From: Methanosarcinales archaeon | Lineage (GTDB): Archaea; Halobacteriota; Methanosarcinia; Methanosarcinales; Methanocomedenaceae | Assembly: GCA_021108405.1 (NCBI GenBank) | Contig: JAIOQW010000211.1 | Span: 1 to 50,118 of the forward strand | Reading direction: 5' to 3' | Length of the DNA stretch: 50,118 nucleotides | Part shown: in pieces, positions 7,894 through 11,486 of the stretch | How the letters are laid out: each line of letters starts with the position of its first letter | How positions within the stretch are numbered: the stretch's first letter is position 1 | Translations under genes and position numbers: made by a program | The notes under the pieces: model-generated | Database searches by the model: none | Told to the model about the DNA's origin: nothing | The model's input: the letters and a program-made list of their open reading frames with translations, nothing else

Positions 7894-9630
7894 TCAAACC
7901 CCGGTCTTCTCCCTATATAGAGTGAGCATATTATCTATTGTCTCAGGTGTAATTTTACCAAGCTGGGAAACTGTCTCATAGAACCGTGACGGTACTTTCA
8001 CCCTGCCTACATCAAACCCTTCCTGTTTCTTGAATTGGTACTTTGCAAGGAAAATCTCCTTACCCAAAGCTTCCAGTTCATCTCTTGTTTTTATAATACC
8101 TACACTCGCAAGAGAATCAATCATAATCTGCTCGCTATAAACGCCTCTGGCAAAGAGACAGCATACGAGACTGTTGTTGACCATACGCCAGTAATCCTCA
8201 TAGATGATCTTATCTACCATCTTTTCCTCTGTTAACTGCTGGCTGGAAGCTTTCTGGTCAATGCTGTAACCGCCATTATCCAGATGTGAATGCCGTACAC
8301 CCACTATCTGGCCAATTATCGAGGCAGGACCAGTATGATATCCTGCGATCTCAACTCCAGCCAGATTAATAGCATAGTCCTCTCCGCCGTATTCAGCCGC
8401 AGCCACAGCAGTACCTTTTGCCAGTGCCTGATAGAACTTATTTGGCATCTTTACGATCTGGTCAAGAGCTTTTAGATACTTGTCAGTATCTCCCCATCTT
8501 AATGCGATCCCCAGAGTATCCGAAGGAGTGATAAGATCACGTTCATAGGCCTCAGTGGCCCATGCCAGTACACCGCCCACACTAAGGACATCCAGACTAT
8601 AGCGCTCGCACCTATCGATCAGACGCAGTACGTCTTCTGCTAGTGTAATGCCCAGGTTGGTACCAAGAGCATAAATAAGTTCATAATCATAACTGATATT
8701 ACGGAACTCAAACTCATGCCCCTTGTGGAACTGTGTCTTTAGCATGGCAATATGGATGCACCCTATAGGGCAGTTACTGCATGCGATCTTACGAAAGAGA
8801 AGATTATCTGCAAAATATTCACCTGATAAGCTCTCTGCATTTTCAAAATGTGATTGTTTAAGGTTCTTGGTAGGCAGTCCTTTTAACTGGTTCAATACAC
8901 TGATATTAGCTGCTGTCCCAAGGTCATGGTATTTATCCATAACATCAGTATCCACAACCGAATTATAGAGTTTATTATACATTTTCTTAAAAGCTGACAT
9001 ATCAGGAATATCAATCTCTTCAGTTCCTGATATTACCATAGCTTTGAGGTTTTTGCTTCCGAATACAGCACCCAGCCCAAGCCGTCCGAAATGCCGGTAG
9101 GTATCAACATTCACATTAGCATACCTTACCTGGTTCACACCACCTTCTCCGATACGCATAATGCTGCGTCTGCCTTTCCCGGGCTCTACATTTCGAAGTA
9201 TCTGCCCTGTCACTTCAATTGACGAGACGTCCCAAATACTGGCAGCGTCCTTAATCTTTACTTCTTCATCATGTATGGAAAGATAGGACGGTTTATCCGA
9301 ACGTCCCTTTATAACAATACTATCATATCCGGCAAACCGCATAGCCATTGCCAGCCTACCGCCTACATGGGATTCGCCCATTTCATTGGTAAGAGGTGAT
9401 TTGAACATTGATACTGCTTTTGATGCACACGGAAGAAGTGCGGTCAGTGGTCCTATACTTAATATTATAGGAGCTTGTGGTGATAGCGGATCAACACCGA
9501 TGGGACACTCTTCAAGCAGCAACTGTGTTGCTACACCTGTTCCTCCAAGATATTTATCAAACAGATCAGCACGATCGCGAATAGTATGTTCACCTGTATC
9601 CAGGTCAATATATAATACATTAGACCACAT
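7894..9630 (-). CDS. aldehyde ferredoxin oxidoreductase (AOR family)
   Basis: A 578-residue cytosolic tungsten/molybdopterin enzyme of the AOR family, which oxidises aldehydes to acids with ferredoxin or a partner Fe-S protein as acceptor, or runs in reverse. The N-terminal cofactor domain has LGGTGVA and SIGPLTA. The [4Fe-4S] ligands Cys284, Cys287 and Cys291 are in CSNCPIGC, and the distal cysteine is one of Cys490/Cys491. GRLGLGAVFGSKNLKA (about 182-197) is a family hallmark. Substrate cannot be inferred; the carboxylate-forming FOR/WOR/AOR subtypes were not separated. It lies 2 bp downstream of its four-cluster ferredoxin, so the two form an operon. Confidence 0.93.
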   Translation of the reverse strand: MWSNVLYIDLDTGEHTIRDRADLFDKYLGGTGVATQLLLEECPIGVDPLSPQAPIILSIGPLTALLPCASKAVSMFKSPLTNEMGESHVGGRLAMAMRFAGYDSIVIKGRSDKPSYLSIHDEEVKIKDAASIWDVSSIEVTGQILRNVEPGKGRRSIMRIGEGGVNQVRYANVNVDTYRHFGRLGLGAVFGSKNLKAMVISGTEEIDIPDMSAFKKMYNKLYNSVVDTDVMDKYHDLGTAANISVLNQLKGLPTKNLKQSHFENAESLSGEYFADNLLFRKIACSNCPIGCIHIAMLKTQFHKGHEFEFRNISYDYELIYALGTNLGITLAEDVLRLIDRCERYSLDVLSVGGVLAWATEAYERDLITPSDTLGIALRWGDTDKYLKALDQIVKMPNKFYQALAKGTAVAAAEYGGEDYAINLAGVEIAGYHTGPASIIGQIVGVRHSHLDNGGYSIDQKASSQQLTEEKMVDKIIYEDYWRMVNNSLVCCLFARGVYSEQIMIDSLASVGIIKTRDELEALGKEIFLAKYQFKKQEGFDVGRVKVPSRFYETVSQLGKITPETIDNMLTLYREKTGV

Positions 9631-9632
9631 AA

Positions 9633-10043
9633 TTATAGCACCTCTACTTTTATTAATTCAAGTACATCATGACTGCAGAATTTTGAGCATACACCACAGT
9701 GTGTACATATTAATGGTAATCCCGATCTATCAAAATGTATAGCACCAGGCAAACATGCCTGAGCACATGCTTTACATCCATCACAGAGGTCCTTATTAAA
9801 CACAACACCACCACCATCTCTGGGAGTTAATGCCCCGGTCGGACATGCTCTGGCGCATGGAGGATCATGACATGCGCGGCATACGATAATCTCAAACGCG
9901 CTTTCAAGTCCACCTGAAGTCCTTATATCTATTGCACTGTCTATCAATGATACTGAATTTACATTTATACGGCTGCAAGCAAGCATACAGCTAAAACATC
10001 CGATGCATCTATTCGGATTAGCAACTTTGATTCTTGAAGGTAT
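9633..10043 (-). CDS. AOR-associated ferredoxin with four [4Fe-4S] motifs, apparent ATA start
   Basis: An electron-transfer subunit with sixteen cysteines in four cluster motifs: CIGCFSCMLAC, CRACHDPPCARACP, CDGCKACAQACLPG and CTHCGVCSKFC. It resembles the Fe-S partners of bacterial and archaeal AORs and DMSO-reductase-type enzymes, and should carry electrons between AOR and the ferredoxin pool. The first ATG (9986) lies inside the first cluster motif and would destroy it. The frame upstream stays open for about 50 codons without ATG, GTG or TTG. A GGGGG-containing ribosome-binding site (complement of 10053-10057) lies nine bases before ATA at 10041-10043, which gives I-P-S-R-I-K-V-A-N-P-N-R-C, the expected N-terminus. 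A sequencing error in the A5-G5-A5 run is the alternative. Confidence 0.85.
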   Translation of the reverse strand: MPSRIKVANPNRCIGCFSCMLACSRINVNSVSLIDSAIDIRTSGGLESAFEIIVCRACHDPPCARACPTGALTPRDGGGVVFNKDLCDGCKACAQACLPGAIHFDRSGLPLICTHCGVCSKFCSHDVLELIKVEVL

Positions 10044-10204
10044 AGAATTTTTCCCCCTTTTTATATCTGTATAGTTAAATTGATGTTCACAGTATTTATG
10101 AGTTTGGTGTTTAGGAAGAAGACTTAATATTATTTTAGTATGTTAGAGACATAACACTAAAATCCAGTTATTTCCATTGATATATTAGATGCAGATGCAA
10201 CCAT

Positions 10205-10293: not shown

Positions 10294-11486
<1,193 letters not shown>

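Follow-up and report, generated by a model that had tools for sequence, protein, structure and literature searches.

The window, by which we mean the whole 50,118-nucleotide stretch of DNA analysed here, belongs to a 363-contig MAG of an uncultured archaeon of the methane-oxidising type. Its minus strand carries a gene for a cysteine-rich ferredoxin, 2 nt upstream of the ATG of an AOR-family oxidoreductase gene (Table 1). The two genes are adjacent and co-directional in the window and in every archaeal relative checked, and an SD-like GAGGTG for AOR lies inside the 3′ end of the ferredoxin gene. From sequence and adjacency, the ferredoxin is predicted to serve a tungsten aldehyde oxidoreductase as its iron-sulfur partner. 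Its frame remains open, without frameshift or stop, as far as the TAA at 9633-9635. Divergent from the ferredoxin gene, a SepCysS-like gene (tRNA-dependent cysteine pathway, identified by eye from its sequence) occupies positions 10327-11478 of the plus strand; its listed GTG start is probably wrong, and an ATG is found two codons later.

Table 1. Features of the ferredoxin-AOR locus, in positions of the window.
Feature	Position	Strand	Remark
AOR-family oxidoreductase, 578 aa, ATG start	7894..9630	-	AFOR_N and AFOR_C domains
AOR-associated ferredoxin CDS read from ATA, 136 aa	9633..10043	-	16 Cys, four [4Fe-4S] motifs
Cluster motif 1, CIGCFSCMLAC	9975..10007	-	C13, C16, C19, C23
First in-frame ATG	9984..9986	-	codon 20, within cluster motif 1; implausible as a start
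ATA, presumed start codon	10041..10043	-	ATG in the HR1 sister
GGGGG Shine-Dalgarno (SD) core	10053..10057	-	9 nt spacer to ATA
Possible TATA box, CATAAATA	10093..10100	-	also in the sister

As the sequence-only reading had claimed, no ATG, GTG or TTG occurs in frame between the upstream stop and the ATG at 9986, and the conserved N-terminus can be reached from none of these codons. That reading had also placed the first cluster motif upstream of the first ATG, which is correct for C13, C16 and C19, but the ATG itself lies inside the motif and C23 follows it. A product begun there would retain only C23, and as three of the four motif 1 ligands would go, this ATG is not a credible start. Initiation elsewhere than at ATA is thus extremely unlikely, whether at ATG 9986, the sole canonical in-frame start nearby, or at a non-canonical codon such as the ATC four codons on, given that the SD spacing is best for ATA and that residues 2-19 are conserved across the order with synonymous changes. 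Two further candidates were rejected: the upstream GTG at 10090 is out of frame and its frame terminates at a TAA before the SD, and no upstream ATG could be joined by a frameshift, since none enters the reading frame and A5-G5-A5 indels create none.

The G-rich ribosome-binding site noted nine bases ahead of ATA 10043 was confirmed as GGGGG. The duplex energy of this SD, calculated with an assumed anti-SD tail (archaeal 16S rRNA was not found in this MAG), was -9.1 kcal/mol against -6.2 in the sister genome with ATG, a difference of 2.9 that comes from a single pair and is suggestive. Among 6000 ATA triplets sampled from the same genome (0.81 Mb), 1% had an SD duplex of -9.1 kcal/mol or lower at a usable distance, and two had GGGGG at the identical spacing; in the window, the ATA placed by the SD coincides with the start position of the orthologs. 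The possible TATA box would yield a leadered mRNA, with a leader of about 25-30 nt.

The closest genome of the same genus, which we take to be ANME-2 cluster archaeon HR1 from the matching GenBank contig MZXQ01000040.1, reads ...ATATAAAAGGGGAAAAACTTCT ATG CCTTCAAG where the window reads ...ATATAAAAAGGGGGAAAAATTCT ATA CCTTCAAG (the assemblies are 2.2 Mb and 3.67 Mb, respectively). As the sister ATG sits at the same base within nearly the same flanks, the ATA position is a real start site, in agreement with the earlier statement that homologous proteins begin at ATA 10043. An ATG or an indel at this place in relatives had been named as evidence against an ATA start. The sister does carry that ATG, though this shows where the start codon lies and does not refute it; an indel in the A5-G5-A5 tract gives no in-frame ATG, and base 10041 alone differs from the sister start codon.

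Coding constraint begins at the same point. In codons 2-19 of 14 Methanocomedenaceae orthologs, 3, 3 and 17 columns were variable at codon positions 1, 2 and 3, while the 12 codon columns upstream of the start in these genomes had 11, 11 and 12 variable columns and 14 stops, so that synonymous codon periodicity starts directly after the ATA position. This onset, the sister start and the absence of any other canonical in-frame start together support the ATA reading. Between the window genome and the sister, the ferredoxin has a dN/dS of 0.195 (rank 58 of 151 ortholog pairs; median 0.173) and is under purifying selection; the AOR value is 0.041. The start-codon survey covered 151 ortholog pairs from 0.81 Mb of the window genome and 0.57 Mb of the sister, and in about 95 of these pairs the start had SD support. 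The ferredoxin was the sole pair with an SD-supported non-canonical start in the window genome and no alternative nearby. Another apparent ATA/ATG pair, L182, was rejected, as start codons were present 3-4 codons upstream (GTG GTG in the window genome, GTG ATG in the sister).

The sister ferredoxin (L007/L036/L146) has Gly at the nearly invariant Cys90 of motif 3 (DGGKLC versus DGCKAC), which is either a real ligand loss or a MAG error and could mean relaxed constraint in the genus. In one other relative, a divergent ferredoxin copy (G013:C438, L022) contains internal stops. Such losses, and the faster evolution of the ferredoxin than of AOR, would fit a decaying ferredoxin that is poorly or not translated while AOR is kept, with the loss of the start codon as its mark. 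We regard this as very unlikely for the window, where all 16 of 16 Cys are intact without frameshift or stop, dN/dS is near the genome median and the strong SD is kept.

The same position was then compared in relatives, whose family, genus and species names we presume from matching GenBank contigs and general knowledge. The codon is ATG or TTG in Methanocomedenaceae (TTG in six MAGs) and ATG in Methanosarcina-type genomes. Ten genomes from three genera of Methanosarcinaceae, ANME-3 HMMV and Methanohalobium among them, have ATT, and two sequences of Methanosalsum have ATA. A strong SD is retained in all relatives with a weak start, be it TTG, ATT or ATA. Among the ten ATT sequences this codon never varies, whereas the third base does so in 17 of the 18 following codons; codon 2 shows CCA/CCG variation only, and the SD (GGGAG.TGAT, GGGGA..TGAT or GGGGG) lies 8-10 nt before ATT. 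An ATG two codons downstream of ATT, present in most of these sequences, is disfavoured as their start, since its distance from the SD is 14-16 nt and relatives have GCA or AAA in its place. In JAFGOO010000175.1 (L048/L127), a member of this group, in-frame ATG, GTG and TTG are absent before codon 19, which makes its ferredoxin gene a second unambiguous example with no canonical start, from an independent MAG. The start is ambiguous in Methanohalobium (L020/L117; ATT) and Methanosalsum (L021/L069; ATA), because an in-frame ATG that overlaps the SD lies five codons upstream. Judged from these alignments, weak start codons recur at the AOR-ferredoxin gene across relatives, and the invariant ATT in ten orthologs of other genera makes a genuine non-canonical start more likely in the window.

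The recurrence also bears on the main rival, in which the ATA is a consensus error or a minor-strain base in the MAG that hides an ATG shared with the sister. One base separates the two codons, the assembly is in 363 contigs, and base 10041 is known from one MAG consensus. Yet a random error would need to strike exactly this base in a ferredoxin gene and operon that are otherwise intact, and independent assemblies from other genera also have no canonical codon at this position; in particular, an error here cannot explain the ATT group. We therefore consider a consensus error or minor-strain base unlikely, albeit the foremost of the competing explanations.

The reading we favour, with a probability of roughly three in four, is near-cognate initiation at ATA 10043 with Met from the ordinary initiator tRNA, positioned by the strong SD and giving a low ferredoxin output. 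The GGGGG would place the 30S subunit at AUA, where the initiator tRNA-Met (CAU anticodon) could pair at two of three positions, and synthesis would begin with Met at low efficiency. An odd initiator tRNA was not seen: in 30 of 35 tRNA loci and two more, the Met-type anticodon was only CAU, and UAU was not found. The ATG was presumably lost through a single G to A change after the split from the HR1 sister, and in relatives the same position has drifted to TTG and probably also to ATT. That the gene stayed functional would be due to its strong SD and a small demand for ferredoxin, or else to a low output being suited to the ferredoxin:AOR operon, in which ferredoxin would be made in a lower amount relative to AOR.

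A further, more speculative proposal is that weak initiation at UUG, AUU or AUA is a selected control of AOR-ferredoxin throughout the order Methanosarcinales, keeping its output low or sensitive to aIF1 fidelity or growth state. This appears doubtful at present. Under such control, AUU would be ancestral in Methanosarcinaceae, and AUA would have arisen separately in the HR1 genus and in Methanosalsum.

To our knowledge, natural starts at AUA or AUU are very rare, with nearly all examples found in bacteria, in which near-cognate starts include those of infC, pcnB and ccpN. Archaeal initiation employs aIF1 and aIF2 in place of IF3. The occurrence of ATG, TTG, ATT and ATA in one archaeal gene family, Methanohalobium- and Methanosalsum-type sequences among them, would offer a natural system for studying how near-cognate codons are tolerated or used in IF3-less initiation. 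Gene callers limited to ATG, GTG and TTG truncate or shift such proteins, and here the cut falls within an iron-sulfur ligand motif.

Near-cognate initiation itself is already known. In S. aureus, AUA is the start codon of infC, ccpN and citZ, and AUU that of cvfC1, the first gene of its operon; extended SDs are reported for infC, ccpN and cvfC1, and ccpN, citZ and cvfC1 reporters gave about 10% of AUG output (PMC13009471). An ATT start was inferred from sequence, the one such case in Asgard archaea, for the tubulin AtubA of Kariarchaeaceae (PMC13394414). In archaea, aIF1 discriminates against near-cognate start codons (PMC6237735). A broad survey found that weak starts tend to accompany stronger SDs, and reported for annotated orthologs AUG to AUU at one of 61,358 ancestral AUG starts and no AUG to AUA (PMC5622118); this rarity counts against an ATA start, though annotation rarely allows such starts. 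What appears to be new here is the presence of other weak starts (TTG, ATT and ATA) at the same ferredoxin position in relatives.

As a protein, the ferredoxin resembles the small subunit of WOR5 and AorA (PDB 6x6u_B, 6x1o_B and 8c0z_C; also 9mqx_E) in sequence and in being a polyferredoxin beside a tungsten enzyme of the AOR family, whereas its best overall sequence matches are HycB3/HycB4 and other polyferredoxins, and its partner is a predicted one. As a start site, it shares with bacterial infC, pcnB, ccpN, citZ and cvfC1 an AUA or AUU placed by a strong or extended SD, but it would be read by an archaeal ribosome, encodes a metabolic ferredoxin, and varies among ATG, TTG, ATT and ATA between genera. 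Another parallel is AtubA (PMC13394414): both are archaeal MAG genes in which the homologous region reaches beyond the annotated start, upstream to a near-cognate codon that has a ribosome-binding site, and both starts were deduced computationally, but AtubA uses ATT and is a single gene.
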